Source: Actinokineospora enzanensis DSM 44649
GTDB taxonomy: Bacteria; Actinomycetota; Actinomycetes; Mycobacteriales; Pseudonocardiaceae
Direction: 5' to 3'
DNA: 64,000 bases
Assembly: GCF_000374445.1 (NCBI RefSeq)
Contig: NZ_KB894437.1
Span: forward strand, 1 to 64,000
Below are positions 45,776 to 64,000 of this stretch, in pieces. The translations under genes and the position numbers were made by a program. A model generated the notes under the pieces. It worked only from the letters and a program-made list of their open reading frames with translations. It had not been told where the DNA came from and did no database searches. Within the stretch, counting starts at the first letter, position 1. Each line of letters opens with the position of its first letter.

Positions 45776-46999
45776 TCAGGCGCCCAGGGTTTCGCGGCCG
45801 CCGAGGTACGGGCGGAGCGCCTCCGGGACGTGGATCGAACCGTCCGGGCGGACGTGGTTCTCCAGCATGGCCAGCGCCGCCCGGTCGGTGATGCCGGTGG
45901 ACGAGATGGTGTGCGGGTGCACCATCTTGCCGTCGCGCCGGAACCGGATCTTGAAGCGGCGGGCCTGGTAGTCGATCAGGTTGCTGTTCGAGTGCGTCTC
46001 GCGGTAGTCGCCGAAGGACGGGAACCAGGTCTCGGTGTCGTACTTCTTGTACGCGGGCGCGCCCAGGTCGCCCATGCACACCCGCACCACCCGGTGCGGC
46101 AGTTCGAGGCCGGTGAGGATGTCCTCCACATTGCGCTGACACTCGTCGAGCCAGTGCTCCGAGTCCTCCGGCTTGCAGATCACGATCTGCTCGACCTTGT
46201 GGAACTGGTGCACCCGGTAGCCACCCCGATTGTGCCGACCGGCACTGCCCGCCTCGGTGCGGAAGCACGGGCTGAACGAGGTCAGCTGGATCGGCAGCTC
46301 GTCCAGGTCGATGACCATGTCGCCGTAGTAGCCGATCAGCGTCTGCTCCGAGGTGCCGATCAGCGACAGGTCGGTGTTCTGCACCCGGTACAGCTCTTCC
46401 TCGAAGAACGGCAGGTAGCCGGTGCCGAAGAAGGTGCGGTCACGGGCCATCAACGGCGTCAGCATGGGCACGAAGCCGCGCTTGCCGAGCAGGTCCTGGG
46501 TGTAGGAGAAGATCGCCCAGGCCAGCCGGGCACCGTCGCCGCGCCAGTAGTAGAAGCCCGAGCCCGCGACCTCCGCGCCGCGAACCATGTCGAAGATCCG
46601 CAACCGCTCGCCGATCTTGTCGTGCGCCCGCTCCTCGTCGACGGGAGTCTGCTCGCCCGCCCGCCGCAGCTCGACGTTGCCGCCGTCGTCATCACCCAGC
46701 GGGGTGTCCTCGGCAACCAGATTGGGCACCCGCACCCACAGCGCGTCACGCTCCTGTTCGAGCGCGCGCGCCTGCTCGGTGGTCTCCTTAAGCTCTTCCT
46801 TGACCGCGACCGCCACATCCCGAGGCGTGTCCTTGCCGAACTGCTTCTGCTGGTGCCGCAGCCCCTCCGCGTGCGTGGTCAACCGCCGCAACTCGGAGTC
46901 CACCCAGATCAACCGCTCGACGTCGAGGTCAGATCCCCTGGCCTGGCAGGTCTGCCTGACCAGGTCGGGATTCGTCCGCACAAGCGCGATGTCGATCAT
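45776..46999 (-). CDS. serS: Divergent seryl-tRNA synthetase
   Basis: This 407-residue class II synthetase has an N-terminal helical tRNA-binding arm (~27-110), motif 2 with Arg247 (FRTEAGSAGRHNRGGYRVHQFHKVEQ is split by no gap) and a motif 3 arginine at 373. It charges tRNA-Ser. Two regions depart from the usual form: ETHSNSNLIDYQARR replaces EISSCSN-type sequence, and TGITDRAALA replaces the GLAVGR motif 3 core. Such a copy beside a biosynthetic locus may be a resistant duplicate or a supplier of seryl-tRNA for biosynthesis; it could also be the only copy. The start has GGAAGG upstream. Confidence 0.85.
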   Translation of the reverse strand: MIDIALVRTNPDLVRQTCQARGSDLDVERLIWVDSELRRLTTHAEGLRHQQKQFGKDTPRDVAVAVKEELKETTEQARALEQERDALWVRVPNLVAEDTPLGDDDGGNVELRRAGEQTPVDEERAHDKIGERLRIFDMVRGAEVAGSGFYYWRGDGARLAWAIFSYTQDLLGKRGFVPMLTPLMARDRTFFGTGYLPFFEEELYRVQNTDLSLIGTSEQTLIGYYGDMVIDLDELPIQLTSFSPCFRTEAGSAGRHNRGGYRVHQFHKVEQIVICKPEDSEHWLDECQRNVEDILTGLELPHRVVRVCMGDLGAPAYKKYDTETWFPSFGDYRETHSNSNLIDYQARRFKIRFRRDGKMVHPHTISSTGITDRAALAMLENHVRPDGSIHVPEALRPYLGGRETLGA

Positions 47000-47321
47000 C
47001 GTTGGCCTTCCGGGTAACGTGCGTAGGCCAATGATCCTATCGGTAGCCCCGGCCACCTCGCGGTCGGGACCGAGCCGCCCCGGCCGGTCGAATGCCGTGG
47101 TCCACCCGTCCGAGTATGCCCCGAGCGGCTCGCGGCCGCCCCTGTGTGCTGTGCCTGCCGTCACACCGTTTCGGCTGGCCGGACACCGGCTCCCGACGGC
47201 GGCCGGTGTCCATCGTGGTGCGTGCGCCTTTCGGTGACCCCTACCGGCAGCCGGAAGCGGCCGCCGAAGTCCACTTGGAACTCACCGTCGAGCTGGTCCC
47301 CACCGGCGCGTCGGGCAGGCC
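47000..47321 (+). other. Gap with coding-like sequence of unknown status
   Basis: On the plus strand the frame through about 47092-47340 has strong G/C at third codon positions and a protein-like stretch (VSIVVRAPFGDPYRQ, then HLELTVELVPTGASG), but has no good start and runs into the 3' end of the carrier-protein gene. It may be a gene remnant. No T-box leader is visible upstream of serS. Confidence 0.3.
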
Positions 47322-47573
47322 TCAGCATCGTCGGGCGGTGCCGATGCCGTTCCAGAGCGACTGCGGGGTGGCCAGCAGGTCGTGGCCGAGCATGTCGTCC
47401 GGGAAGCTCACTCGGTAGCGGTCCTCCAGGGCGAACAGCACCTGGATCGACTTGAGCGAATCCATCCCCAGGGTCGCGAGGTCCGCGTCCGGGCGCAGCG
47501 GCTGGTCCGCGGGCAGGCCGGTGAGCGCGGTGCGCAGGATGCGGTCGAAGTCGGCGTCCCAGTCGTGCGGCAC
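47322..47573 (-). CDS. Free-standing acyl/aminoacyl carrier protein
   Basis: This 83-residue protein has a carrier-protein fold with the phosphopantetheine serine Ser39 in LGMDSLKSIQVLFALED. It is the third gene of an operon with an AMP-dependent ligase and a decarboxylase/dehydrogenase fusion. I infer that it carries the amino acid loaded by the ligase while the fusion acts on it. The GTG start has AAAGGGA upstream. Confidence 0.88.
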   Translation of the reverse strand: MPHDWDADFDRILRTALTGLPADQPLRPDADLATLGMDSLKSIQVLFALEDRYRVSFPDDMLGHDLLATPQSLWNGIGTARRC

Positions 47574-47599
47574 GGTCGGTTCCCTTTCGTCGGATCGGC

Positions 47600-49957
47600 T
47601 CAGGCGAGGGTGATGGCGCGGTCGGCGAGGGTCAGTACCCCGTTGGCGCGCAGGAGCCAGTCGTTCGAGCAGTTCATCGCGGCCGACCGGAGGTCGCGCA
47701 GGTTGCGTTCGAGCGGCAGGGACGAGCCCCGCTGGTAGCCCTGACCGAGCCCGGCCAGCTGGACGCACCGGTCGACCGCCCGGTAGGTGAGCTCCGCGGC
47801 CGTCACCTTGAGGCAGGTCAGGTGTGCCTGCAGGGCGCCGCCCGCCGGGTCGTCGCCACGGGCGCGGCACAGCTCCACCTCGTCGACCACGCGGCTGAGG
47901 TAGCCGCTCACCAGTTCCAGGTCGTGCCGGATGACGGCCACCCGCTCGTGGACCAGGTGCGACGACAGGTCCGCGCCCGCGGGACGCCCGGGGGAGCGGA
48001 ACAGGCCGACGACGTCGCGAAGCGCTTGGTGCGCGGTGCCCAGCCAGCACGCGGCCCACCCGATCATGCCGATCGGCGTGAACGAGGCCACCGCCACGTC
48101 CCGGAACCGGCCCGGGACGCCCACCACCTGGTCCGCCGGGACCCGGGCGGTCAGCCGCAACGGCGCGCTGGCGGTCGCCCGCATGCCCAGTGGGTCCCAG
48201 CCGCCGGTCGCGGCCACGGTGGCCTGGGCGCGTGCGATATACACCAACGAGACGGAGGTCTCCGGGGCGTCGTCCGCCGACCGCATGGTCACCAGGTAGC
48301 CGTCGGCGTGCGCGCCGCCGGTCACCACGGGCGCGTCCCGCTCGACGACCAGCTCCTCGCCGTTGCGGCGCAGCGGGGCGTGCGCGGTGAACAGGTCCCC
48401 GCCGGTCGAGCGCTCCGAGGTGATCGAGGCCAGGTACACCTCGCCCGCCGCGACGCGCGGGAGCACGCGGTCGCGCAGGGCCGCCGAACCGAACCGCACC
48501 AACGCGTCCACCTGCTGGCAGTGCATGGCGAACGCCATGGCGGTGGATGTGCACGCACCGGCCAGGACGCGCACGACGTCCGCCAGCCGGGCAGGTCCGA
48601 GGCCGAGGCCGCCGTACGCGCGCGGCACGAGTAGACCCATGAGCCCGCCGCTTCTCAGCGCCGCGAGGCTCTCCAGCGGGAACTCGGCCTTCTCGTCCGT
48701 CGGGCCCGCGCAGGCGCGCAGCACCGGGACGACCTTCTCGGCGGCGGCGACCGGGTCCGGGGACCGCACGACGTGCCGGGTCATCTCCTGCCGGGTGGCC
48801 GAGACGACCGTGTCGCCGCGGACCACGATCTCCGCGGGCAGTGCCCGCCCGAGAAACCCGACCAGGCTCGCGGACAGACCGTAGGCGCCGGTGTTCGGCA
48901 CCGCCAGCACGTCGCCGGGCGCGGGCAGGGGCATGCGGACATCGCGGGCGAGCACGTCGGCGGGTGTGCACAGTGGACCTATCAGGGTCACCTGGGCCTC
49001 CGGGCCACCGCCGGTCACCACCTCGGCCCGGATCCGCGGCGGCAGCATCCGCCGCAGGCCGGTGAGACCGCCGAGGTGGTTGATCCCCGAGTCCAGCACC
49101 ACATGCGTGCCCGCGCGCGCCTCCCGCACATCGAGCACGGTGGTCACCAGGGTGCCGCACGAACCGACCAGGTAGCGGCCGGACTCGAAGGCCAGCCGCG
49201 TCCTGGCCGGGAGGGCGAACGCGGCGATGGCGGCGGCGAGACCCGGGTACGCGGGCCGTGCTCCCGGCGTGGCGTACGGGGTCGCGAACCCGCCGCCGAG
49301 GTCGAGCAGGTCCAGGGGCAGGCCGTGGTCGGCGTGCAGTCGCGCGGCGGTCGTGAGGTTGGCGCGGAACTCCGTGATCAGGGCTTCCTCGCCGCGCGCG
49401 TTGCTGGCGGTGAACAGGTGCAGGCCGACCAGCGTGACATCGGGCTCGGCGAGCGCGGCGGGCGCCCATTCGTCCGCTCGGTCCGCGTCGAGGCCGAACG
49501 CGGCGGCGCCCCCCATGCGGATGCCCGCGTCCCCGTCGGAGGTACCCGGGTCGATCCGCAGCAGGCAACGCGGAACCACGTGCGCGGCGCGGCCCGCCTC
49601 GGCGACGCGGCGCAGCTCGACGAGCGACTCGGCGGAGAACAGGACCACTCCCGCGGCGAGCGCGTCGGCGATCTCCGCCGCCGTCTTGCCCGGACCGGTG
49701 AACAGGCATGCTTCCGGCGTGAACCCGGCGGCCAGCGCCGCGGCGAGCTCGCCACCGGAGCTGATCTCGGCCCGGCAGCCCAGGCGGGCGAGTTCCGTCA
49801 GCACAGCGGGGTTGGCGTTGGCTTTCAGCGAGTAGAACAACAGCGCGGACCCCGGCAGGTGCTCGCGCAGGTCGGTGACGGCGTCGGTGACCTCGGCCAG
49901 GTCGTAGACGTAGAGCGGGCTCCCGTGCTCGGTGACCGCCGCGGCGAGTCCGGTCAC
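47600..49957 (-). CDS. Fused fold-type III PLP decarboxylase and acyl-CoA dehydrogenase
   Basis: This single 785-residue frame joins two enzymes. Residues 1-390 are an alanine-racemase-fold PLP decarboxylase: Lys45 in YSLKANANP, ESGRYLVGSCG, catalytic Cys330 in GPLCTPADVL and NTGAYGLSAS. Residues ~395-785 are a flavin acyl-CoA dehydrogenase: GLLVPRAYGGLGLG, TSERSTGGDLF and a C-terminal GQGYQRGSSLPLERNLRDLR. No stop separates them; Met392 has AGGAG directly adjacent, too close for efficient initiation. Relatives decarboxylate carrier-bound amino acids (BtrK, VinO) and desaturate carrier-bound amino acids (PltE, RedW). The GTG start overlaps the ligase stop. Confidence 0.9.
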   Translation of the reverse strand: MTGLAAAVTEHGSPLYVYDLAEVTDAVTDLREHLPGSALLFYSLKANANPAVLTELARLGCRAEISSGGELAAALAAGFTPEACLFTGPGKTAAEIADALAAGVVLFSAESLVELRRVAEAGRAAHVVPRCLLRIDPGTSDGDAGIRMGGAAAFGLDADRADEWAPAALAEPDVTLVGLHLFTASNARGEEALITEFRANLTTAARLHADHGLPLDLLDLGGGFATPYATPGARPAYPGLAAAIAAFALPARTRLAFESGRYLVGSCGTLVTTVLDVREARAGTHVVLDSGINHLGGLTGLRRMLPPRIRAEVVTGGGPEAQVTLIGPLCTPADVLARDVRMPLPAPGDVLAVPNTGAYGLSASLVGFLGRALPAEIVVRGDTVVSATRQEMTRHVVRSPDPVAAAEKVVPVLRACAGPTDEKAEFPLESLAALRSGGLMGLLVPRAYGGLGLGPARLADVVRVLAGACTSTAMAFAMHCQQVDALVRFGSAALRDRVLPRVAAGEVYLASITSERSTGGDLFTAHAPLRRNGEELVVERDAPVVTGGAHADGYLVTMRSADDAPETSVSLVYIARAQATVAATGGWDPLGMRATASAPLRLTARVPADQVVGVPGRFRDVAVASFTPIGMIGWAACWLGTAHQALRDVVGLFRSPGRPAGADLSSHLVHERVAVIRHDLELVSGYLSRVVDEVELCRARGDDPAGGALQAHLTCLKVTAAELTYRAVDRCVQLAGLGQGYQRGSSLPLERNLRDLRSAAMNCSNDWLLRANGVLTLADRAITLA

Positions 49958-51438
49958 GGTGCCACCGAGGCCGTCACGGCGGCCCGGTCGACCTTGCCGG
50001 TGGCCGTCTGCGGGAACGCCGCCATGACCACGACGACGTCCGGTCTGCGGTCCGGATCGAGCAGCCTAGCCAGGCCGGACATGACCTCCTCCGGCCGCAC
50101 CGCCCCGGCGACCACCAGGACCAGCCGGTCGTCCTCGGTTGGCGGGACCGCGATCGCCGCGCGCACGCCCGGGAGCTCCTCGGCCGCCGCCTCGATCTCG
50201 GCGATGCTCATTCGCGTCCCCTTGTGCTTGAAGATCCCGTCGCGCCTGCCGGTGAAGTGCAAGGTCCCGTCCGCGTCGGCAAACCCGTAGTCGCCGGTGC
50301 GTAACGACCGTGCGCCCGAGGCGTCCACGGTGAACCGTTCGGCCGTGGCTCCGGCGTCGCCGAAGTAGCCCGCCATGACGTGCGGGCCGGATACCACGAT
50401 CTGCCCGATCACTCCCGGCGGCAGCGGTTCGCCCGCGTCGTCGACGATCCGGACCCGGGTGCCGGGCAGCGGTCTGCCGACCGACCCCGGACGGGCCAGG
50501 TCTTCGTCGGGATCGGCGATGCTGACGCGCTTGCACTCGGTCAACCCGTACATGGCGACGACGGCTGCCCGCGGGAACGCGGTCCGCAGCCGCCGGGCCG
50601 TGCGCGGGACCAGTGCCGCGCCGGTGTTGGTGATCAGACGCACCACGGTGTCGGCAGGTCTGCGCTCGGCGATCTCGGCGATCAGGCCCGCGAGTGTGGG
50701 GACGACGGGGAGGACGGTGGCCCGGCTGGTGGCGATCTCGCGCAGGAGGGCGGCCGGGGTGGCGGTCGACAGCCACACCGCCGCGCCTGCGGCGCAGCCG
50801 AGCAGCAGTTGGTAGAGGCCGTAGTCGAACGAAAGCGGGAGTCGGACGAAGATCCGGTCCCCGGGTCGGTACCGCAGACGGTCGCCGATGGCCGTTGTGG
50901 CGAACAGGACACCGGCATGCGGGCAGAGCACGCCCTTGGGCGCCGATGTGCTTCCGGACGTGTACAGGAGCAGGGCATCGCCGTTCCGGTCGGCGCCTGC
51001 TGCTGAATTGACCGGATCGGTCGCCGTCGCCACCAGCAGATCCCGTTCGGACAGTGACGGAGCCGGAACCGGGGACTCGGCTGTGATCACGAGGGCCGGG
51101 CGGGCGTCGGCGAGGATCACGCGTAGTCGCTCGGGGGGAAGGGACGGGCTCAGCGGGACGAACACGGCTCCTGCCCGTGAACAGGCATAGAGCAGCATGG
51201 CAGTGGTGACACTGTTCGGTAGCGTCGCGGCGACCCGGTCCCCCGGCATGATTCCGTTATCACTCAACAACTCCGCGCATCGGAGGCTACGCAGGCGCAG
51301 CTCCGCATACGTCCACTTCTCCTTGGCGTCGCATACGGCCGACGACGACGGCCATCTCGCCGCCGCGGTGTCCAGTAGCTCATGCACGAAGCGCGGAGTG
51401 GTCACCGCGGGCGCGGTGGAGATGGTCGATTTTGCCAT
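49954..51438 (-). CDS. AMP-dependent acyl/aminoacyl ligase
   Basis: This 494-residue ANL enzyme has the P-loop LLLYTSGSTSAPKGVL, an A5-type MYGLTECKRVS, A7 RTGDYGF and a C-terminal lysine in QTATGKVDR. It resembles the ligases that pair with a PLP decarboxylase and an acyl carrier protein in exosortase-associated and macrolactam starter pathways. Here it starts an operon with exactly those two partners. It most likely adenylates an amino acid and loads the carrier at 47322. It is divergent from the A-domain gene at 51626. Confidence 0.9.
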   Translation of the reverse strand: MAKSTISTAPAVTTPRFVHELLDTAAARWPSSSAVCDAKEKWTYAELRLRSLRCAELLSDNGIMPGDRVAATLPNSVTTAMLLYACSRAGAVFVPLSPSLPPERLRVILADARPALVITAESPVPAPSLSERDLLVATATDPVNSAAGADRNGDALLLYTSGSTSAPKGVLCPHAGVLFATTAIGDRLRYRPGDRIFVRLPLSFDYGLYQLLLGCAAGAAVWLSTATPAALLREIATSRATVLPVVPTLAGLIAEIAERRPADTVVRLITNTGAALVPRTARRLRTAFPRAAVVAMYGLTECKRVSIADPDEDLARPGSVGRPLPGTRVRIVDDAGEPLPPGVIGQIVVSGPHVMAGYFGDAGATAERFTVDASGARSLRTGDYGFADADGTLHFTGRRDGIFKHKGTRMSIAEIEAAAEELPGVRAAIAVPPTEDDRLVLVVAGAVRPEEVMSGLARLLDPDRRPDVVVVMAAFPQTATGKVDRAAVTASVAP

Positions 51439-51518
51439 GGTCGCGTCCCCACTCTGAACCCTGGCCGCAGCCTAGCCAACCGACCACTCGTCCGGCTGTC
51501 ACCAGAATCGGTTACAGG

Positions 51519-51553
51519 CCAAGGTCATCCATAGTCGGCCCGGATGTCCTTGG
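51519..51553. promoter_or_regulatory. Inverted repeat in the divergent biosynthetic promoter
   Basis: CCAAGGTCATCC at 51519-51530 pairs with GGATGTCCTTGG at 51542-51553 (11 of 12 positions) across an 11-nt spacer. It lies in the 187 bp between the two divergent ligase operons and could be the operator that controls both. No regulator gene lies inside the locus in this window. Confidence 0.5.
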
Positions 51554-51625
51554 ACCAAGTAGGTTCGACGCGGGGACCGGGTACGCGGTCTTCGAGCGGT
51601 ATCCGTTTCTGCGAGGTCGGCCATC

Positions 51626-53086
51626 GTGACTGCATCCCGTGAAGGGCTCCTGCACGCGCCATTCCTGGGCGTGCTGGATGATGGCGCGCCCGCGATCCGC
51701 GATGGCGATGTCGTTTGGACTTACGGCAGGCTGCATGAGACGGCGCTGCACTGGGCGGGTCGCGTCGCGGACACCGTGTCGGGTCCGCCGCGCGCGGTCG
51801 CGGTGCTCGCCCGGCACCGGCGCGTCGCGTACGCGGCTCTGCTCGCCGCCCTCTACACGGGCGCGTCCGTCGTCCCGATCAGTCCGTCGGTCCCGGCGGC
51901 GACGCGGGACGCGATGCTGCACGCTGCCCGGGTCGACGCGATGATCACCGACACGGCGGTGTCGGGCCACTCCGTGGTGCGAGTGCACCCTGACGACCGC
52001 GGTCGGGGACTGGCCGAGCCGTTCGCCGTGCGCCCGGATTCCACCGCCTACATCCTGTTCACCTCCGGCAGCACCGGGGTCCCCAAGGGAGTCCCGGTCG
52101 CGCATTCCGCGGCCGCGCACTACTTCGACCACGTCGCCCGCCGTTACGACTTCGGCCACGGGGACGTGTTCTCCCAGACTTTCGACATCGGCTTCGACCT
52201 GGCCCTGTTCGACCTGTTCGCGGCCTGGGGCGCGGGTGCGACAGTGGTCGCCGTGCCGCCGCAGGCGTTGCGCGACATCGCCGGGTTCGTCACCCGCGCC
52301 GGGATCACGGTCTGGTTCTCCACACCCAGTGCCATCCCGTTGGCGGCGCGGACCGGCGGACTGCGCCCGATGCCTTCCCTCCGGTGGAGCCTGTTCTGCG
52401 GTGAACCCCTGCCGGTCGACGACGCCGAGCGCTGGCAGCGGTGCGCACCGGGTTCGCGGCTGGAGAACCTGTACGGGCCTACCGAGCTGACGATCTCGTG
52501 CACGGCCCACCGGTACACGCGCGCCGACATCGAATCCCCCCAGGGGATAGTGCCGATCGGCGACCTGCACGACGGGCTGTCCGGGCTCGTGGTCGACACC
52601 GACGGGCACGTGGCCGCGGAGGGCGAGCTCTGTGTCGCGGGCCCGCAGACCTTCGGGGGCTACCTCGACCCGCGTGACGACGCCGGGCGCTTCCTGGACG
52701 CGGACGGTCGCCGCTGGTACCGCACCGGTGACGTCGTCCGCAGCAGGGCCGACGGCTTCGTCTTCCTCGGCCGCGTCGACCGGCAGGTGCAGATCCGCGG
52801 CGCCCGCGTCGAACCCGGCGAGATCGAACACCGCCTGCGCGCCGCGCCCGGTGTCGATGCCGTAGCGGTGGTCGCCCCACTCGGCGCCGCTGGTCGCGTC
52901 CTGGTCGCCTTTTACAGCGGGAAGGAGCGCCCCGCGGCCGAACTGCGGAACTTCGTGGCCGCCCGCCTACCGCCCGCGTCCACTCCCGACCACTACGTGC
53001 ACGTTCCGGACCTGCCGCGCACCAGCCGCGGCAAACTCGACCGTCCAGCGCTGCTGGCGCGAGCGGGAAGTCTCGTCGCGGCGTGA
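51626..53086 (+). CDS. Free-standing NRPS-type adenylation domain
   Basis: This 486-residue protein has adenylation core motifs: A3 YILFTSGSTGVPKGVPV, A4 FDIGFDLALFDLFAAW, A5 NLYGPTELTIS, A7 YRTGDVVR, A8 FLGRVDRQVQIRGARVEPGEIE and A10 RTSRGKLDR. It lacks condensation and carrier domains, so it loads an amino acid on a carrier protein in trans. The aspartate in A4 (FDIGFD) suggests alpha-amino acid binding. It is first of three genes on this strand. The GTG start follows GAGG. Confidence 0.92.
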   Translation: MTASREGLLHAPFLGVLDDGAPAIRDGDVVWTYGRLHETALHWAGRVADTVSGPPRAVAVLARHRRVAYAALLAALYTGASVVPISPSVPAATRDAMLHAARVDAMITDTAVSGHSVVRVHPDDRGRGLAEPFAVRPDSTAYILFTSGSTGVPKGVPVAHSAAAHYFDHVARRYDFGHGDVFSQTFDIGFDLALFDLFAAWGAGATVVAVPPQALRDIAGFVTRAGITVWFSTPSAIPLAARTGGLRPMPSLRWSLFCGEPLPVDDAERWQRCAPGSRLENLYGPTELTISCTAHRYTRADIESPQGIVPIGDLHDGLSGLVVDTDGHVAAEGELCVAGPQTFGGYLDPRDDAGRFLDADGRRWYRTGDVVRSRADGFVFLGRVDRQVQIRGARVEPGEIEHRLRAAPGVDAVAVVAPLGAAGRVLVAFYSGKERPAAELRNFVAARLPPASTPDHYVHVPDLPRTSRGKLDRPALLARAGSLVAA

Positions 53087-53117
53087 GCTGGGTGGTCCAT
53101 CCGAAGGGAAGCTGGGT

Positions 53118-54839
53118 TTGATTACCGATCACGCGCGGATCACCACTGCGGGACTGCTCGACTGGTGGGCGCATCACTTTCCCGACGACATCGCGCACAT
53201 ATTGCCCGACGGTCGCGATCTCCGATATGTCCAGTGGGCACGGCGAAGCGCGGAAGTCGCGGCTGCGTTGCACGCACGTGGTGTCGCCGTGGGAGAGTGC
53301 GTCGGCTTGGCGTTTCCGCGTGCGGCTATCGACGAGTTCGCCGTGCTGCTCACGGCGTTGCATCGGTTGGCGGCTGTGGCCGTGCTATTGCCCGCGGACG
53401 AGACCGGGCCCGGATTCGGCAGACTGGTCGCGGAGGGGCGGGTCACCCGGATCGTGGGTCCCCGTGCGTGGACCGTCTCCGCTCCGGTGTCGACCGTTCC
53501 CGTTCTCGCCGCGGAAGACCTGGTCGCCGACGGGGAACTCCCGGGACATGTGGTGCGACCCGGGGACACCGCCACGGTGGTGTTCACGTCCGGTACCACG
53601 GGTGAACCCAAGGCGGTCGCCGTCCCGCATGGCGACATCATGTTCGGGATGGCCGACCGGTTGCCGGAGTTCGCCGATGGTCCCGGTGGGCGAACCCTGT
53701 TGCACGCGTTCCCGCTCTCGGTCCCGGTCGGTCAGTGGGCGGCCCTCGCGCCGCTGTTGGCGGGCTTGCGCGTGGTCACGATGGCGCGGCTCGACCCGGG
53801 GCTGTTCCTGGAACTGGTCGACCGGCACGGTGTCACGGACACGGCCATGGTGCCCGCCACGGCGGCAGCCTTGCGCGACGCCCGGCCCCGGCCGGGGACG
53901 ATGCGGCGGGTGATCGTGGGGTCGGCGCGAGCCCCGATGCCCGCGCTGCGCACCCTCCGCGCGCTCTTCCCGGCGGCCGAGCTCGTGGTCGACTACTCCA
54001 GCACCGAGTCGGGGTGGGCCGGTGCGTCCACTGTGGTCGGCGACGGCCACCGGCCCGGTCTGGTCGGCGCGCCGAACGCGGGCTGCGCCGTGCGGATCAC
54101 CGACGAGCATGGCGCCCCGCTCGGCCCCGGCGAGACCGGGGTCGTCGAGCTGCGGCTGCCGCCCGGCATCCCCGTCCGCCACTACCCGAACGACCCGGCG
54201 GCGACCGCGGCGACGTTCCGCGGCCGCTGGGTCCGCATGGCCGATCTGGGCAGGCTCGACGACGAGGGCAGGTTGCACCTGGTCGCCCGTACCAAGGACG
54301 TGGTCAGCGTAGGTGGGCGCAAGGTCTCCTGTCCCGAGGTGGAGGCCGCGTTCGAGGCTCACCCGGCGATCCGGGAGGCGGCCGCCTTCCCGGTCGCCGA
54401 CCCGATCCTGGGCGAGGAACTCGTGATCGCGCTCGTCGCCGACCGTGTGGTGACCGAACCGGAACTGCGGGCCCACGTCGTCGAACTGCTGGCACCGCAC
54501 AAGGTCCCCGCGCGCGTCGTCATCGTCGACGACCTCCCGCGCACCCGCTCCGGCAAGGTGCGCAAGTCCGACCTGCCTGCCCTGCTGGCTCCCGCCGCAC
54601 GCGAGGAGGGCTCGATCACCGGCCTCCTCACCCGAGCCGTGGCCGACGTCCTCCGGCTGGACGACGTCGGACCCGACCGCACGCTCGCCGACCTCGGCGC
54701 CTCCTCGATCCAGGTGATCCGGGTCTACCGCCGCCTCAGCGATTCCCTGGCCGCAGACTTCGACGTCACCCTTCTCTTCGAACCGGTGCCACTGGCCACC
54801 ATCGCCGACCGTTTGACCGACACCATCCAGGCCCCGTGA
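53118..54839 (+). CDS. AMP-dependent ligase fused to a C-terminal carrier domain
   Basis: This 573-residue protein has an ANL ligase (~1-485; VVFTSGTTGEPKAVAV, DYSSTESGW, VRMADLGRLDDEG, RTKDVVSVGGRKVSCPE, PRTRSGKVRKSDL) and a carrier domain (~495-573) with phosphopantetheine Ser530 in LGASSIQV. The ligase could load its own carrier with an acyl or aryl acid. It follows the adenylation-domain gene by 31 bp. The TTG start has GAAGGGAA upstream. Substrate is not evident from sequence. Confidence 0.9.
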   Translation: MITDHARITTAGLLDWWAHHFPDDIAHILPDGRDLRYVQWARRSAEVAAALHARGVAVGECVGLAFPRAAIDEFAVLLTALHRLAAVAVLLPADETGPGFGRLVAEGRVTRIVGPRAWTVSAPVSTVPVLAAEDLVADGELPGHVVRPGDTATVVFTSGTTGEPKAVAVPHGDIMFGMADRLPEFADGPGGRTLLHAFPLSVPVGQWAALAPLLAGLRVVTMARLDPGLFLELVDRHGVTDTAMVPATAAALRDARPRPGTMRRVIVGSARAPMPALRTLRALFPAAELVVDYSSTESGWAGASTVVGDGHRPGLVGAPNAGCAVRITDEHGAPLGPGETGVVELRLPPGIPVRHYPNDPAATAATFRGRWVRMADLGRLDDEGRLHLVARTKDVVSVGGRKVSCPEVEAAFEAHPAIREAAAFPVADPILGEELVIALVADRVVTEPELRAHVVELLAPHKVPARVVIVDDLPRTRSGKVRKSDLPALLAPAAREEGSITGLLTRAVADVLRLDDVGPDRTLADLGASSIQVIRVYRRLSDSLAADFDVTLLFEPVPLATIADRLTDTIQAP

Positions 54840-54892
54840 TGACCACGAGCGTGTCCGGGGCGGCTGCCGCGGGTGACCGTCGAAGGAGCGCG

Positions 54893-55768: not shown

Positions 55769-55771
55769 GGT

Positions 55772-56569
55772 TCAGCGGTCCAGGCCGCCGGTGCGGCGCG
55801 CGTTCTCCAGCAGCAGGTGCATCGCGAGACCCGCCACGGCCAGCCAGCCCACGCCCACCAGCAGCTCGGCGCCCGCCGCGCCCACGATCCCCGCCCAGTC
55901 CCCACCGGACAGCAGCGCGCGCACGGCCGCGAGACCGTGGGTCACCGGAAGCCCGTCGGCCAGCGTGGCGACCGGTCGCGGCCAGTACGACACCGGCACG
56001 TTGACCCCGGCGAAGGCCATGATCGTCAGATAGGACACGTTCAGGGCGGGCCACGCCAGGGTCGGGAAGCGCATCACCAGGGCGCTGAAGAGCAGGCCGT
56101 AACAGTAGGTCGTGAGCGCGCAGATCAACACAAGCGGGATCAGCAGGAGCGTGCGCGCCCCCGGCAGCGGGATGTCGAACACCGGGGCCACCACCAGGAA
56201 CACCACAGTGGAGCTGAGCAGGCCGCCGACCGGTGCATTGAGACTGCGAGCGGCCAGTGCCACCAGGTGGCTGCCGGGCGCGGCCATCAGCAGCGGCAGC
56301 TTGCCACCGCGCCGCTCCCCGGCGACGAACGCCATGGCGCCGACCGACTCCATCGTCATCACCGCGACCACGTTGCCCACGGCCAGGTAGCGCACCGTGT
56401 CCGCGTTCCCGACCACCAGGCCCACCGAGGTGAAGAACACCACCTGGAAGGTCAGCCGCAGCGCCCAGCCGCCCAGCCAGGAGCGGACCGTGTAGTGCGC
56501 CCGGTACTCGGCGAGGCCGATCCGCGCGGCCGCGGGGATGATCCGCAGCTGCGCGCGCAGCGTGCTCAT
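55772..56569 (-). CDS. ABC-2 type transporter permease
   Basis: This 265-residue protein has six membrane helices in the ABC-2 arrangement (YTVRSWLGGWALRLTFQVVFF, then paired central helices and a re-entrant GVNVPVSYWPRP segment). It is last of an exporter operon with a second permease (coupled by ATGA) and an ATPase. Because the operon lies within the biosynthetic block, export of or resistance to the product is likely. It ends 3 bp from the convergent KAS III-like gene. Confidence 0.88.
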   Translation of the reverse strand: MSTLRAQLRIIPAAARIGLAEYRAHYTVRSWLGGWALRLTFQVVFFTSVGLVVGNADTVRYLAVGNVVAVMTMESVGAMAFVAGERRGGKLPLLMAAPGSHLVALAARSLNAPVGGLLSSTVVFLVVAPVFDIPLPGARTLLLIPLVLICALTTYCYGLLFSALVMRFPTLAWPALNVSYLTIMAFAGVNVPVSYWPRPVATLADGLPVTHGLAAVRALLSGGDWAGIVGAAGAELLVGVGWLAVAGLAMHLLLENARRTGGLDR

Positions 56570-57327
56570 CCGACCAACACCCGCCCGTCCTCGCGGACTC
56601 GACGCACCACCGCGCGGGTCAGTGCCGCTCCCACGACGAGGTAGCCGCCGCCGAGGACCACGAGCGCGCTCAGCGCGGGCCATGGGTTCAGCGGCGCGGC
56701 AGCGGTGGCGGCGCGCAGCAGGTCCGCGCTCCAGGACAGGAAAACCAGGCGGGACAATGGTTCCAGCCAGTCCGGCAGCAGCCCGGTGGGGAGGAACACC
56801 CCGCCGAGCACGTACACCGGGTAGGTCAGCGAGTTCCGCACCGACGACGCCTCCCGGCCGAGTACGAACACCGTGCTCAACACCAGTACCGCGCCTGCCA
56901 TCGCGAGGCAGGTGGCCAGTACGCCCACCACGAACAGCACCGGGTGGCCGAACTCCAGGCGCACCCCGAGCGCCACCGCCACCAACCAGGCCTCCACGAA
57001 CACGACCAGTCCCGTGATCGAGACCGCGGCCGATCGGCCGAGCAGCACCCGGAAGAACGACGCGCGGGAGACCAGCACGTGTTCGAGCACGCCGTCCCAT
57101 CGGTCGCCCTCGACGATGCCCGCCGCCAGTCCCAGGCCCAGCGTCCACATGCCGATCAGCGCGGGCGCCAGCAGGGCGTGCGTGTCCAGGTCGACCCGGC
57201 CGCCGTGCCGGGTGATGGACAGCAGCACCAGCACCTGGAACGGCAGCGCCACCAGGGCCGCCACCCGGCCGATCCCGGTGCCGAACACCGCCAGCTGCAG
57301 GCGGAACGCCTGCGCCACGACCCGCAT
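56566..57327 (-). CDS. ABC-2 type transporter permease
   Basis: This 253-residue protein has six membrane helices and an LTYPVYVLGGVFLPTGLLPDWLEPLSRL stretch, the characteristic ABC-2 extracellular helix region. It pairs with the permease at 55772 and the ATPase at 57332. Heteromeric ABC-2 exporters of this kind carry antibiotics (DrrB-like). It starts 4 bp after the ATPase stop. Confidence 0.88.
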   Translation of the reverse strand: MRVVAQAFRLQLAVFGTGIGRVAALVALPFQVLVLLSITRHGGRVDLDTHALLAPALIGMWTLGLGLAAGIVEGDRWDGVLEHVLVSRASFFRVLLGRSAAVSITGLVVFVEAWLVAVALGVRLEFGHPVLFVVGVLATCLAMAGAVLVLSTVFVLGREASSVRNSLTYPVYVLGGVFLPTGLLPDWLEPLSRLVFLSWSADLLRAATAAAPLNPWPALSALVVLGGGYLVVGAALTRAVVRRVREDGRVLVG

Positions 57328-57331
57328 CGGG

Positions 57332-58306
57332 TCAGACCTCCAGTTCGCGGTGGCCGACCATGCGCAGGTAGATGTCCTGCAGCGACATCCGGTCGGTCCG
57401 GATGGTGGTGACCCCGGCCGCGACCAGCCTGGTCAGCACGTCGTGGGTGGTGCCCTCGGCGACCACCCGCACCCGGATCCCGCCGCGCTCGCCCGGTTCC
57501 ACGCCGTCGACGCCGGGCAGGTCGGCGAGCTCGGCCACCAGACCGGGCGGCACGCCCTCGGCGTCCACGTACTCATACCGGGTCAGCCAGCCACCGAGCG
57601 TGTGCGGCGCCTCGGTGGCCAGCACCCGGCCGCCGTCGACGAGCGTGACCCGCTCGCACAGCTGTTCGGCCTCGGCCATGTCGTGCGTGGCCAGCAGCAG
57701 TGTGCGGCCCTCGCCCTGCAGTTCGCGCACCACGTCCCGGAAGGCCAGCGCCGCCACCGGGTCCATGCCGTTGGTCGGCTCGTCCAGGATCAGCACGGCG
57801 GAGTCGCCGACCAGCCCGCGGGCCAGGTGCAGGCGCTGGCGCATGCCGCGGGAGAAGGTCTCGGTCGGCGAGTCGGCCCGCTCGGCCAGGCCGAACCGCT
57901 CCAGCAGCAGATCCACCCGGCGCGCGGCCGCTCGCCCGTCCAGGCCCGCCAGCGTCGCCCAGTACAGCAGGTTGCGCCGGGCACTGAGGCTGCCGTAGAG
58001 GCCGTTGTCCCCGCCCAACACCAGGCCGATCACCTCGCGCACCCGGCGGTGCTCGCCGACCACGTCGTACCCGAGCACCCGCGCCTGGCCCGAGGTCGGC
58101 ACCAGCAGGGTGGCGAGGATCTTCATGAGGGTCGTCTTGCCCGCGCCGTTCGGGCCGAGCAGCCCGTGCGTCTCGCCCCGCTCGACCCGCAGGTTCACCC
58201 CGTCGAGCGCGACCCGCTCGGTGCGCGCCCGGCGGGGGCCGCGCCGGGTGACGAAGGTCCGGCGCAGGTCCCGGACCTCGACGGCGGGTACCGCTGCCGT
58301 GCTCAT
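57332..58306 (-). CDS. ABC transporter ATP-binding protein (DrrA-like)
   Basis: This 324-residue ATPase has Walker A GLLGPNGAGKTTL, signature FSRGMRQRLHLARGL, Walker B AVLILDEPTNGMDP and H-loop LLATHDM. A C-terminal extension (~235-324) is typical of DrrA-type drug exporters. The GTG/ATG start region overlaps the aldehyde dehydrogenase stop (ATGA-type), putting the enzyme and the exporter in one transcript. Confidence 0.92.
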   Translation of the reverse strand: MSTAAVPAVEVRDLRRTFVTRRGPRRARTERVALDGVNLRVERGETHGLLGPNGAGKTTLMKILATLLVPTSGQARVLGYDVVGEHRRVREVIGLVLGGDNGLYGSLSARRNLLYWATLAGLDGRAAARRVDLLLERFGLAERADSPTETFSRGMRQRLHLARGLVGDSAVLILDEPTNGMDPVAALAFRDVVRELQGEGRTLLLATHDMAEAEQLCERVTLVDGGRVLATEAPHTLGGWLTRYEYVDAEGVPPGLVAELADLPGVDGVEPGERGGIRVRVVAEGTTHDVLTRLVAAGVTTIRTDRMSLQDIYLRMVGHRELEV

Positions 58307-59772
58307 GCCGGGTACCCCACGACCTTGGTCGTCAGGAAGTCGGCCAGCGCCGCACCGCCGCCGTGGTGCCCGTTGCCGCTGCCGCGGCGGGCCGCGAACG
58401 GGGCGTCCGGCCCGTACGGCAGGCCGCCGTGCACCGACACGGCGCCTGCGCGCAGGCGGGCCGCCACCGCTCGGGCCAGTTCCGGCGGGCCGCCGCTGAC
58501 CGCCGCCGAGAGCCCGTACGCCGGTCCGTCGGCCAGCGCGACCGCGTGGTCCACGTCGTCGTAGGGCAACGCGACCAGCGCAGGCCCAGGTAGCTCGTGG
58601 CGGGCCAGGTCGGTGTCGGGGGACAGGTCGGCGATCAGCACCGGTTCGACGTAGAACCCGCCGCCCGCGGGCAACGCGCGGCCCGCGCGGATGACGCGCC
58701 CGCCTGCCCGCTCGGCCTGCCCGGACACGGCGAGCACCCGGTCCCGCAGCTCTGCGCTCACCAACGGGCCCATCAGCACGTCCGGGTCCGCCGGGTTGCC
58801 GATCGGGACCTCGGCCATCCCGTCGGCGAGCAGCTCCAGCGCCTCGGCGTACCGCGCACGCGGCACCAGGACTCGTTTGTAGAGACTGCAGGCCTGCCCG
58901 GCGTGGAAGCAGACGCGGGCACCCGCCGCGGCGATGTCGCCGTCGTCGGCCCCGTCCAGCACGACATGCGCCCCGGCCCCGCCCAGGTTCAGCACCAGGC
59001 GCTTCAGCGTGGCCGCCGCGGCGTAGGCCACTGCCCGGCCTGCGGCCGTCGACCCGGTCAGGCCGACGAGGTCGACCGACGGGTGCGCGGCGAGCACCGT
59101 ACCGAGGTGTGCGGGGTGCGCGGAGCTCACCACGTTGAGCACTCCCGGCGGGAAGCCCGCCGCCACAGCGTGCGCCCCCACCGCGAGCCCCGCCAACGGG
59201 GTGTGCGGGGACACCTTCAGCACGACCGTGTTCCCGGCCCCCAGGGCGAGCACGAGGCTCCGCAGCAGCAGCGCCAGCGGGAAGTTCGCCGGGGTGATCA
59301 GCGCGACCACGCCGACCGGCTCCGCACGCACCTCCCGGCCACTGCTGAACCCGTGGAAGCCGCGGGTGGGCAGGTCCACCAGCCACCGGTGGCGTTCGAC
59401 CAGGTCACACAGCGACCCGGCCTCGTCGAGGGCGCCGTCGAGCTGGATGGACCTGGTCAGTCGGACCGGCACCCCACCCTCGCCGACCAGCAGCTCCCGC
59501 AGCCGTTCCCGGCTCGCGCGCAGCCCCGCGACCAGGGCGCGCAGGCAGGCCACCCGGCATGCCGGGTCACGGACCCAGTCGCCGCGGTCGAACGCGTGTC
59601 GGGCCGCCCGCACCGCCTGGTCGAGGTCCTCCACGGTGGCGTCCGGGACCGCGGCGAACGGCTCGCCGGTCGCGGGCGCCACATCGGGGTACGTGCGCCC
59701 GCCCGCGGCGGGCCGCGACTCGCCGTCCACCAGCAGGGCGGCGGTCATGTCGATCGTCGCCGCGTCGATCAT
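58303..59772 (-). CDS. Aldehyde dehydrogenase family protein with altered general base
   Basis: This 489-residue protein has the ALDH fold with Asn163 (TPANFPLAL), Lys186 (VVLKVSPHTP), a GSTAAG cofactor turn and nucleophile Cys295 (HAGQACSLYKR). The general base, normally Glu in ELGGKSP, is Asn262 here (LNLGGAGAH). Loss of this base usually slows deacylation, so it may make a thioester or act on another substrate, or be impaired. It starts the exporter operon within the biosynthetic block. Confidence 0.88.
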   Translation of the reverse strand: MIDAATIDMTAALLVDGESRPAAGGRTYPDVAPATGEPFAAVPDATVEDLDQAVRAARHAFDRGDWVRDPACRVACLRALVAGLRASRERLRELLVGEGGVPVRLTRSIQLDGALDEAGSLCDLVERHRWLVDLPTRGFHGFSSGREVRAEPVGVVALITPANFPLALLLRSLVLALGAGNTVVLKVSPHTPLAGLAVGAHAVAAGFPPGVLNVVSSAHPAHLGTVLAAHPSVDLVGLTGSTAAGRAVAYAAAATLKRLVLNLGGAGAHVVLDGADDGDIAAAGARVCFHAGQACSLYKRVLVPRARYAEALELLADGMAEVPIGNPADPDVLMGPLVSAELRDRVLAVSGQAERAGGRVIRAGRALPAGGGFYVEPVLIADLSPDTDLARHELPGPALVALPYDDVDHAVALADGPAYGLSAAVSGGPPELARAVAARLRAGAVSVHGGLPYGPDAPFAARRGSGNGHHGGGAALADFLTTKVVGYPA

Positions 59773-59952
59773 CAGTCGGCTCCCCGCTCACCTGTTCCCG
59801 CCGGTCGCGGGCGTTCTCGACGCTACTGGTCGACGCGGGCGATCCCGGGGTGCGCGATGTCCCATAATCCGGGCACACGGCGTCGTGCCGTCACCGGTCG
59901 TGTTCGGGGCGGGACCACGCCGTCATTGCTGCTCCGTTAGCATTCCGGGAGA

Positions 59953-59979
59953 TTCCCGGCTCGGCCCTTGAGCCGGGAA
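59953..59979 (+). promoter_or_regulatory. Leader hairpin upstream of leuS
   Basis: TTCCCGGCTC and GAGCCGGGAA form a perfect 10 bp stem with a 7-nt loop, 25 bp before the LeuRS start. No T-tract follows, so it is an operator or leader structure rather than a terminator. A T-box is not apparent. Confidence 0.4.
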
Positions 59980-60004
59980 GCACTGACCCGGGCAGGAACG
60001 AAAA

Positions 60005-62479
<2,475 letters not shown>

Positions 62480-62618
62480 TCGCCGACCGGGTGCTGCCCG
62501 CGTGGCAGTACCCGGTTTCGGGGACGTGCGTGCCGGATCGGTGTGAGTGATGCTGATCTCGTCATGCACACGCCGTGGCCGTCCGATGTGGATGGTCGCG
62601 CCGACCACGGGAGATCCC

Positions 62619-62780
62619 ATGTCCCAGCACGATATCTCGGAGGCGGCGGACATCGAGTCCGACGCCAAGCCGGAGGGGCCCGCGTCCGCCCCCGAGCAGA
62701 CCGGGGACGGCGCCGCCGCCACCCCGCGCCGGTCCAAGGTCCGGGTTCTGCAGTACTCCCGGTCCGACCTGCTGATCTGA
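62619..62780 (+). CDS. Small peptide, candidate RiPP-type precursor
   Basis: A 53-residue frame starting MSQHDISEAADIE and ending YSRSDLLI. The first 37 residues are acidic and Ala/Pro/Gly-rich, like a leader. The last 16 are basic then hydrophobic (RRSKVRVLQ and onward), like a core or recognition end. GGGAG lies 5 bp before the ATG. It sits between leuS and a radical SAM gene, the usual place for a peptide modified by such an enzyme. The match to known precursor families is not certain. Confidence 0.6.
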   Translation: MSQHDISEAADIESDAKPEGPASAPEQTGDGAAATPRRSKVRVLQYSRSDLLI

Positions 62781-63061
62781 TCCCACTCCCACCTGTCACC
62801 CGGGGGACCTGACCAACCTGGGTGACGTGCGCGGCGCCGCCCCCGTGGCGCGCACCTCGCGCACCGAGGAAGCAGCGCCGTGCGGCAGGCGGCTGCGCTG
62901 GGTGGCAGTCTCGGTCGGCGTAGCCGCTGTCGTTCCTCGGCCCCCGGCCCGTCAACTTCTCGTTCCCCTCCCGGACGTGTGTGCGCACCCGGTACCAGCC
63001 CACGGCGGTCCGGGCGATCCCGCGCGCCCAGGCGAACTCCCACCACGCGAAGGGGTGACCA
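62781..63061. other. Gap between peptide and radical SAM genes
   Basis: I see no convincing gene here. A minus-strand frame gives tryptophan-rich readings but overlaps the radical SAM start and lacks a ribosome-binding site. CACCCGGGGGAC near the peptide stop may be part of a weak stem. Confidence 0.35.
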
Positions 63062-64000
63062 ATGGCGACGCGCGCCGCGGTCCAGCCGAGCGGAACCGAC
63101 CGAGCGGTGCCGCTGGGCCTGCCCGGATGGATGGCACCGCAGGTCCCGGAAGTGGACCAGTGGAACATCATCCTGACCAACCGGTGCAACCTGCACTGCA
63201 TCTCCTGCTCGTACCCCGACCAGCGGCCGTTCCGGTATGTCCGGCGCGAGACCATCGCCCGCTACCTGCCGCGGATGCTCGACCACGGCGTCCGTCGCGT
63301 CATGCTGACGGGCGGCGAACCCTGCATGCACCCCGACTTCGACGACATCGTCGACGACCTCGCGGCCGCGGACGTGGACATCACGCTGGTCACCAACGGC
63401 ACCTACCTCGGCCGCAAACTCCCGCGCCTGGCCGGGAAACTGGCGCGGCTGATCATCTCCCTGGACTCGGACACCGCCGACGGCTATGCCAGCATCCGCG
63501 GCGCCTCCGCCTTCGACCACCTGACCGGGTTGCCCGCCCGGTTCCGCAAGGAGTCACCCGACACGCACCTGACCCTGTGCGTGCTCACCCAGCGGCTCAA
63601 CTTCCGACGCCTGCCCGAGTTCGTCGAGCTGGCCGCCGGGCTGGGCGTCGACCACGTGTCGTTCCTGGTGCCCGATGTGGCGGGCATGGTCGCGCCGACC
63701 GAGCGTGGCGGCGCGTTCGGGCACGTGGCGGCGCTGCCCGACGACCGCGTGGAGCAGGTGGCGCTGACCGATGCGGAGGTCGAGGAGTTCCGCGAGCGGG
63801 TCATCCCCGCGGTGGAGGCTGCCTGTGCCAGGCATCCGGAGCTGACCAGCAGCTCACTGGACCTGTTGCGCGACTTCGCCGACTACTTCGCCGCGTTCCG
63901 CACCGGCCGCGCCCGCCCGGAGCGGCGCCGCTGCGCGCTGCCGTTCCGTGAGGTGGTGCTGGACGAGCAGGAGCGGTTCCGGTTCTGCTTCTTCATGCCC
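63062..64000 (+). CDS. Radical SAM protein (truncated by window end)
   Basis: The first 313 residues show a radical SAM enzyme: Cys42-x3-Cys46-x2-Cys49 (TNRCNLHCISCSYPD) for the 4Fe-4S cluster, LTGGEPCMHP for SAM, and LVTNGTYLG. A late RRCALPFREVVLDEQERFRFC looks like the start of a SPASM/twitch cluster region. An in-frame stop just before the ATG fixes the start; AAGGGG lies upstream. It probably modifies the peptide encoded before it or a carrier-bound intermediate. The C-terminus is outside the window. Confidence 0.85.
   Translation, partial: MATRAAVQPSGTDRAVPLGLPGWMAPQVPEVDQWNIILTNRCNLHCISCSYPDQRPFRYVRRETIARYLPRMLDHGVRRVMLTGGEPCMHPDFDDIVDDLAAADVDITLVTNGTYLGRKLPRLAGKLARLIISLDSDTADGYASIRGASAFDHLTGLPARFRKESPDTHLTLCVLTQRLNFRRLPEFVELAAGLGVDHVSFLVPDVAGMVAPTERGGAFGHVAALPDDRVEQVALTDAEVEEFRERVIPAVEAACARHPELTSSSLDLLRDFADYFAAFRTGRARPERRRCALPFREVVLDEQERFRFCFFMP

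Follow-up and report, generated by a model that had tools for sequence, protein, structure and literature searches.

A candidate hybrid cluster of ribosomal peptide and carrier-protein genes with two aminoacyl-tRNA synthetase genes in Actinokineospora enzanensis DSM 44649

Gene content and extent of the cluster

The window analysed here is the stretch of 64,000 nucleotides at positions 1 to 64,000 of contig NZ_KB894437.1 (C35; 82,590 bp) in the genome of Actinokineospora enzanensis DSM 44649 (8.1 Mb, 87 contigs). Near its end, genes for adenylating enzymes and carrier proteins lie between those for a seryl-tRNA synthetase (SerRS) and a leucyl-tRNA synthetase (LeuRS), followed by genes for a small peptide and radical S-adenosylmethionine (SAM) enzymes. 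An earlier reading, made from the sequence alone, had proposed that these belong to one biosynthetic system of no nameable cluster type. As judged by gene content and by comparison with one relative, the 23 genes g49–g71, at ~45.8–77.3 kb of C35, are one rare biosynthetic system that crosses the window end at 64000.

Gene labels (g49–g72) refer to gene calls on all of C35; G-numbers denote comparison genomes and L-numbers fetched loci. The Pfam scan covered g49–g71 (E ≤ 0.001) and the NCBIfam scan most of these genes. The features are as follows (aa, amino acids; ACP, acyl carrier protein; KAS III, β-ketoacyl-ACP synthase III).

45776..46999, − strand: g49, SerRS of a foreign type, 407 aa (TIGR00414, 386 bits, cut-off 301.65)
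47322..47573, − strand: g50, stand-alone ACP, VinL/BolC-like, with the Ser in LGMDSL (PF00550, 5.6e-08)
47600..49957, − strand: g51, pyridoxal phosphate-dependent decarboxylase (BtrK/VinO-like, of the ornithine/diaminopimelate type) fused to an acyl-CoA dehydrogenase (PF02784, PF00278, PF02771)
49954..51438, − strand: g52, VinN-like adenylating enzyme, predicted to load aspartate by its β-carboxyl group (PDB 3wvn, 4.8e-110)
51626..53086, + strand: g53, VinM/IdnL7-like adenylating enzyme, predicted to form an amide (PDB 8k4r, 1.2e-131; 6akd, 3e-121)
53118..54839, + strand: g54, acyl-CoA-ligase-like adenylating enzyme with a C-terminal carrier domain (PF00501, PF13193, PF00550)
54836..55768, + strand: g55, candidate KAS III-like acyltransferase (alignment, fold search and a 41% identical homologue)
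55772..56569, − strand: g56, ABC-2 permease (PF01061, 2.6e-06)
56566..57327, − strand: g57, ABC-2 permease (PF01061, 6.1e-14)
57332..58306, − strand: g58, DrrA-like ABC transporter ATPase (PF00005, 8.3e-30)
58303..59772, − strand: g59, aldehyde dehydrogenase (ALDH) without the general-base Glu (PF00171, 7.5e-101)
60005..62479, + strand: g60, LeuRS, 824 aa, with an editing domain (PF13603, PF00133; HMGH and KAMSKS motifs)
62619..62780, + strand: g61, precursor of a ribosomally synthesised and post-translationally modified peptide (RiPP), 53 aa, with the C-terminal core VRVLQYSRSDLLI
63062..64000 and on to C35 64150, + strand: g62, radical SAM, the first of five (PF04055, 2.6e-18)
Beyond the window: g63, radical SAM with a B12-binding match (TIGR03975, 294.2 against a cut-off of 281.85)
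g64, radical SAM with a B12-binding match below the Pfam cut-off
C35 68189–68890 (L009 12189–12890): g65, protein of 233 aa with no family match
g66, radical SAM; g67, radical SAM/SPASM
g68, amidohydrolase (best NCBIfam match Xaa-Pro dipeptidase, below cut-off)
g69, − strand, LuxR-type regulator
g70, PPDK_N and PEP-utiliser domains, PEP-synthase/RedH-like (best NCBIfam match prodigiosin-type ligase RedH, below cut-off)
To C35 77302: g71, second KAS III-like protein (KAS III C-terminal match just under the Pfam cut-off)

All parts that the sequence-only reading had named within the window are present. Pfam recovered three AMP-binding enzymes, two PP-binding domains, the decarboxylase/dehydrogenase, the ALDH, the ABC-2 exporter, the SerRS and LeuRS, and radical SAM. 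Its statement that condensation, thioesterase and polyketide synthase (PKS) domains are absent holds for the whole of g49–g71. Two positions had to be revised. The SerRS, which had been started at 47164, most likely starts at 46999, and the system does not end at 64000, as g62 runs to 64150 and g63–g71 follow to 77302.

Approximately, the cluster is bounded on the left at 45.8 kb and on the right at a point between 77.3 kb and a tRNA-Arg gene at ~79.8 kb, in DNA that is variable among relatives. The tRNA-Arg(ccg) gene (L010 3776–3848) adjoins the conserved g72, and in relatives the DNA upstream of g72 is variable, which marks the site as a likely point of island insertion. No tRNA gene was found inside the cluster, in the window or in L009. 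A T-box or another known RNA was also sought upstream of leuS; the one Rfam match at gathering thresholds was a tRNA. Contamination as the source of C35 was rejected, since g72 is 87–89% identical to its orthologues in six genomes of the genus; the fate of the native synthetase genes, described below, also speaks against it.

The related cluster of Plantactinospora alkalitolerans

A scan of the GTDB species collection with g63 revealed a single close relative (72% identity), in Plantactinospora alkalitolerans, which NCBI places in the Micromonosporaceae. In a tree, the native LeuRS of this organism clusters with that of a genome from a different family within the order, and not with those of the host's family; hence the two carriers of the cluster very probably belong to different families. 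At 1e-6, 17 of the 23 genes have a match within 11.7–36.7 kb of one P. alkalitolerans contig. Because the 29% match of g53 falls on the g52 homologue, the number of homologues is 16. Only four of the other 49 genes of C35 match this contig, at 4–6 kb and outside the cluster, and they are two-component-like.

The P. alkalitolerans cluster begins with the peptide gene and homologues of g62–g68 (43–74% identity; g62 70%, g65 47%), after which the ALDH (51%), the ligase-ACP (48%) and a KAS III-like gene (41%) follow the radical SAM genes unbroken on the same strand. It continues with the LeuRS (71%), a stand-alone dehydrogenase (52%), a second KAS III-like gene (37%) and a stand-alone condensation domain, and ends with the decarboxylase-dehydrogenase fusion (50%), the ACP (38%) and the VinN-like ligase (45%). 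Scatter of these genes among relatives had been set beforehand as the test of a single system; in this one relative the ligase, LeuRS and peptide genes lie together. The 16 shared genes thus support the proposal of a single system in which carrier chemistry is combined with a synthetase gene and a radical SAM peptide. They do not support the wider view that every part is essential: the SerRS, the VinM-like ligase g53, the three exporter genes, the LuxR-type regulator g69 and the RedH-like g70 have no counterpart in the P. alkalitolerans cluster.

The stand-alone condensation domain (L147 11019–12263) is found where the A. enzanensis cluster has the VinM-like ligase instead. This swap may represent an exchange of two amide-forming routes.

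Further searches gave no close relative beyond the host genome, either with g64 in 297 genomes of the family (1e-40) and in a collection of genome contigs or with g63 in 394 genomes of the class (1e-50), where two distant proteins (31–34%) were found. In plasmids, g63 and g66 gave 77 and 105 records, respectively, all below 60% identity, and the best ten and best five of these were below 30%. Among the papers listed for the open PMC literature, no described cluster of such make-up was found, in line with the earlier statement that the set matches no nameable type.

The peptide and carrier-protein halves

The peptide encoded by g61 is, as the comparison of two precursors indicates, a real RiPP precursor with a strictly conserved core. 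The last 13 residues (VRVLQYSRSDLLI) are identical (13/13) in A. enzanensis and P. alkalitolerans, whereas the leaders have diverged. The 13 core codons differ at eight nucleotides, all eight differences being synonymous and none a replacement; when eight changes were placed at random, the core residues stayed intact in 2 of 200,000 trials. Neither precursor matches an NCBIfam or Pfam family, and the strings YSRSDLLI and VLQYSRSD are absent from the open PMC literature.

Each of the five radical SAM proteins has a C-x3/4-C-x2-C motif. The product of g63 passes the cut-off of TIGR03975, a family of RiPP C-methyltransferases, and represents a RiPP-family maturase in the neighbourhood of the precursor. 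Among the matches listed (the best 25 of 47 for g62, 25 of 70 for g66 and 25 of 29 for g67, and all 15 for g64), g62, g64, g66 and g67 lie below every NCBIfam cut-off. The locus resembles TIGR03975 clusters in having such a protein near a small precursor, but differs from them in its five radical SAM genes, a precursor with no family match and the added carrier chemistry. Protein g65 gave chance-level matches only against PDB sequences and belongs to no family in Pfam or NCBIfam; it is conserved in P. alkalitolerans and may be a peptide-binding or transfer protein.

In the carrier-protein half, the closest solved relative of g52 is 3wvn, those of g53 are 8k4r and 6akd, and the closest solved chains to the first half of g51 are those of BtrK (2j66 and 7ru7). 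We take 3wvn to be VinN, 8k4r VinM and 6akd IdnL7; the PDB table labels the first two non-ribosomal peptide synthetase (NRPS) and the third AMP-dependent synthetase and ligase. For a VinN-like ligase, an excerpt of the bolagladin report (PMC7756342) gives Asp230 and Ser299/Arg331 as the residues by which the amino and carboxyl groups are recognised. At these positions g52 has Asp, Thr (for Ser299) and Arg, and the same trio occurs in all nine aligned sequences, which include g52 and a vicenistatin-like locus of the host genome. The latter (C3:276001–296000; L054 4493–19999) holds homologues of VinL, VinM, VinN and VinO together with an alpha/beta hydrolase, an acyltransferase-like gene, a mutase-like pair and a very long PKS-like open reading frame (ORF), the last ones assigned by eye.

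The excerpt assigns BolO, BolC, BolN and the dehydrogenase BolQ to dehydro-β-alanine formation, proposes a KAS III for N-acylation, and gives deletion evidence for the dehydrogenase and the decarboxylase in the N-acyl-dehydro-β-alanine route (PMC7756342). All parts of a cassette of this type are present at the A. enzanensis locus: VinN-like ligase, ACP, BtrK-like decarboxylase, acyl-CoA dehydrogenase and KAS III partner, the last being BolM/BolP in bolagladin. The carrier half corresponds to the route to dehydro-β-alanine that is proposed for the bolagladins. The two systems differ in that the unit starts an NRPS there, whereas at the present locus no NRPS accompanies it, the decarboxylase and dehydrogenase are fused, and the radical SAM peptide and LeuRS are present.

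VinN, VinO, VinL and VinM of the vicenistatin cassette correspond to g52, the N-terminal half of g51, g50 and g53, respectively; VinM activates Ala, Ser and Gly and forms Ala-β-aminoacyl-ACP, according to an excerpt of PMC11284099. Unlike the cassette described there, the cluster has an extra dehydrogenase. A VinK-type transferase, a VinJ-type hydrolase, a PKS (including the type I PKS expected for a macrolactam polyketide) or an NRPS was rejected as a partner, none being recognised among g49–g71. The nosiheptide proteins NosI, NosJ and NosK, as presented in part of PMC5585349, provide a precedent for an adenylating enzyme and a carrier that feed a group into a radical SAM RiPP. NosK, however, is alpha/beta-hydrolase-like rather than KAS III-like, and no thiopeptide genes were recognised at the A. 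enzanensis locus.

One or both halves of g51 have matches at 1e-60 in 66 of 297 genomes of the family, the host included. Hence the β-amino-acid cassette is of a known kind, which makes the carrier half less puzzling than the earlier reading had taken it to be; what is new is that such a cassette accompanies a radical SAM peptide. No SerRS or LeuRS match (1e-8) was found in 20 fetched cassette loci of 14–20 kb; six of the 11 loci listed hold an ORF of >1,000 aa resembling an NRPS or PKS, with a condensation domain confirmed by Pfam in one. The frequency of the cassette on its own, these large partner ORFs and the several transcription directions within the cluster are what would be expected if a RiPP cluster and a cluster for a separate dehydro-β-alanyl metabolite were neighbours by chance or co-regulation. 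Such an arrangement is improbable, as the sole strong relative found for the RiPP half carries both halves, with the ALDH, ligase-ACP and KAS III-like genes running on from the radical SAM genes and the cassette within the same 25 kb.

In NCBIfam, g51 and g52 (47600–51438) come closest to the exosortase-A-associated decarboxylase TIGR03099 and ligase TIGR03098, both matches being below cut-off. Thus, these exosortase-A-associated families may also handle carrier-bound amino acids.

Pfam, NCBIfam and the PDB sequences gave no match for the g55 protein itself. Its identity to g71 is 30%, and to two P. alkalitolerans proteins scoring above a Pfam cut-off for KAS III it is 41% and 37%. Its model (mean predicted local distance difference test score, pLDDT, 58) matches the folds of FabH and of the acyltransferases ChlB3, NatS and CerJ with TM-scores of ~0.5–0.6. 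These homologues and fold matches support the earlier identification of a divergent KAS III-like enzyme at 54836–55768. A profile of g55 and g71, run against the predicted genes of 25 loci, gave no match at E 1, and its match to a normal KAS III was weak (probability 5.8).

The four KAS III-like homologues, two from each cluster, were aligned with a normal KAS III from the same contig, on what we presume to be the roles of the catalytic residues. All four keep the nucleophile Cys and have His in place of the catalytic Asn. None has the catalytic His: three have Gly in that column and g71 has Asn, and the next residue is Asn in all four; an exchanged His/Asn pair was therefore rejected. These enzymes may carry out transfer rather than condensation. 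The ALDH g59 is also altered, as had been noted from the sequence: of the presumed catalytic residues it retains the Cys and has Asn instead of the general-base Glu, where its P. alkalitolerans homologue has Tyr.

The synthetase genes and the proposed role of the product

The C35 LeuRS, used as query, is the sole LeuRS match in its own genome at 1e-30; a second, short match to the editing domain on C26 (E 1.5e-7) falls below that level. In 14 of the 15 other genomes of the genus there is one match at the level of the long-type enzyme, while the remaining genome, G211, has a 72% identical relative of the C35 enzyme. The leuS locus of the genus is kept in the host, in that 12 of the 16 genes of the corresponding G236 stretch match, including both immediate neighbours of leuS but not leuS itself, and ~115 bp separate these former neighbours. 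Hence the C35 LeuRS is not an extra copy. P. alkalitolerans, on the other hand, has a native long LeuRS elsewhere and the cluster LeuRS as a second copy. The LeuRS proteins of C35, the P. alkalitolerans cluster and G211 form one clade (support 100/99), apart from the short-type enzymes that are the sole LeuRS match in six order-level genomes.

The host has two SerRS copies, g49 on C35 and one on C13. Protein g49 is 75% identical to the sole SerRS match of G302 and 34–36% identical to the C13 copy, which synteny and the tree identify as vertically inherited. The branch of the C13 SerRS has a length of 0.45, compared with 0.01–0.11 in nine genus relatives of its clade. At 26 of the 145 positions where 21 orthologues all agree, it has another residue, whereas leaving out each orthologue in turn gave 0–8 such differences. 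The ratio of nonsynonymous to synonymous differences (pN/pS) of the native serS is 0.33–0.37 against four orthologues, compared with 0.07–0.20 among those four and a normal 0.16–0.19 for the flanking gene in the host. The native C13 serS may therefore be decaying or changing role. SerRS was rejected as part of the conserved core, as it is absent from the P. alkalitolerans contig and the only SerRS match in that genome is 43% identical.

As far as these comparisons go, the cluster LeuRS and SerRS probably now do the work of the host cell, having displaced the native enzymes. As in self-resistance, the cluster-linked synthetase is distinct from the native type. A divergent synthetase gene inside a biosynthetic cluster is also found in albomycin (SerRS2) and agrocin 84 (LeuRS) self-resistance, as described in an excerpt of PMC9032320; the A. 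enzanensis locus differs from these in that the native leuS is lost and the native serS fast-changing, the cluster copies look like working enzymes, and there are two of them.

The synthetases had at first been thought to feed an aminoacyl-tRNA-dependent ligase, and a peptide aminoacyl-tRNA ligase, a LanB-like or an amide-forming enzyme was to be looked for beyond 64000. No known tRNA-dependent ligase was recognised up to g71, and no gene of g49–g71 has a Pfam match to the LanB/PEARL, FemX, CDPS or Aat families; the fate of leuS and serS points instead to replacement or resistance. A donor role would persist if a hybrid cluster spent Leu-tRNA, and in A. enzanensis also Ser-tRNA, through an unrecognised tRNA-dependent transferase. 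This enzyme, for which g65 and the KAS III-like proteins are candidates, would attach Leu or Ser either to the peptide or to the carrier-bound unit. One synthetase gene in each half, a LeuRS in both clusters, and a conserved g65 of no known family are consistent with such a role. We nevertheless consider it unlikely, as supply of aminoacyl-tRNA leaves the loss of the native leuS and the rapid change of serS unexplained, and the P. alkalitolerans cluster has no SerRS.

The tRNA-Arg(ccg) gene near the right edge, with the variable DNA beside it, bears on a further explanation, in which both synthetases are horizontally replaced housekeeping genes that landed in the same island and have nothing to do with the product. 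Replacement of this kind is consistent with the short-type enzymes of the six order-level genomes and with the occurrence of the C35 clade elsewhere in G211. However, in an independent genome a LeuRS of this clade lies within the cluster while the native enzyme is retained as well, and two different synthetases flanking one cluster are hard to obtain by chance. This explanation is likewise improbable.

Taken together, the comparisons make it moderately probable that the cluster produces a hybrid of RiPP and carrier-protein chemistry that poisons LeuRS, and perhaps SerRS, the cluster synthetases being insensitive replacements. We infer the product, its chemistry and its target alike from the genes and their relatives. 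In the proposed pathway, the radical SAM enzymes, g65 and the amidohydrolase would methylate, cross-link or otherwise modify the core VRVLQYSRSDLLI and trim it. In the other half, g52 would load aspartate via its β-carboxyl group onto the carrier g50, and the first half of g51 would decarboxylate the aspartyl unit to give β-alanyl-ACP. An acyl group activated by g54 and held on its own carrier domain would then be transferred to the amino group of the β-alanyl unit by a KAS III-like enzyme, in A. enzanensis with the VinM-like g53 as well, and the second half of g51 would desaturate the product to an N-acyl-dehydro-β-alanyl thioester. Joining of this acyl unit to the peptide, or to a fragment of it, would fall to the second KAS III-like enzyme or, in P. 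alkalitolerans, to the stand-alone condensation domain. LeuRS, and in the host also SerRS, would stand outside the chemistry as insensitive stand-ins for enzymes poisoned by the product or a precursor.

As leuS is gone and serS fast-changing, it may be by way of the native enzymes that the product is toxic, for instance by mis-charging with an analogue, or resistance may have made them redundant. To withstand a simple inhibitor, an insensitive extra copy would suffice. That the native enzyme was lost is easier to understand if this enzyme makes the poison, in the form of mis-charged tRNA, or if it became dispensable after prolonged reliance on the new copy. The tRNAs of LeuRS and SerRS both have a long variable arm, which is a possible common point. 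A bolder version, in which this is a new RiPP class, would have the core become a leucine-like warhead fused by an altered-triad KAS III to a dehydro-β-alanyl enamide, with dominant lethality through LeuRS (and SerRS in the host) forcing the deletion or silencing of the native synthetases, so that all protein synthesis runs on the cluster copies; it is rather unlikely.

Several findings weigh against a synthetase-directed hybrid product. Only two clusters are known, so that co-occurrence is one comparison, with protein identities of 37–74%. In G211, of the same genus, the LeuRS of the same clade lies beside an isoleucyl-tRNA synthetase (IleRS) gene in a shikimate-type neighbourhood, in a genome with no g64 relative at 1e-40; thus, the clade may be a general mobile replacement. 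The native serS has an open frame, and its synonymous differences are also raised (pS 0.48–0.55, compared with 0.20–0.37), and decay is therefore not proven. As the P. alkalitolerans cluster has no SerRS, the link of SerRS to the product is weaker than that of LeuRS. The single-sequence model of g65 (pLDDT 36) shows no confident fold.

A conserved 13-residue core, a gene set common to two actinomycetes and a candidate target make the product and its action directly testable. The cluster suggests an unusual join of ribosomal peptides and β-amino-acid carrier chemistry. Two essential synthetases apparently displaced by cluster-borne ones would be a natural mark of synthetase-directed antibiotics, which suggests that lost or decaying native synthetases, besides second copies, may reveal such clusters.

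Two further synthetase neighbourhoods were observed in the genus. In G211 (C25; L098 5936–12002 and L134), where no long LeuRS match was found, the LeuRS gene, oriented divergently to the adjacent IleRS-like gene, has as neighbours a gene with chorismate-binding and glutamine amidotransferase (GATase) domains and a carboxylic acid reductase gene (Pfam) and, by eye, genes resembling those for 3-deoxy-D-arabino-heptulosonate 7-phosphate (DAHP) synthase, isochorismatase and SAM synthetase. In two genomes of the genus, a second SerRS of another clade directly follows a KAS III gene (L106 8367–10710 and L109 6692–8919); acyl-CoA carboxylase-like genes, recognised by eye, lie upstream of this SerRS in L106, which may be another SerRS-linked cluster.

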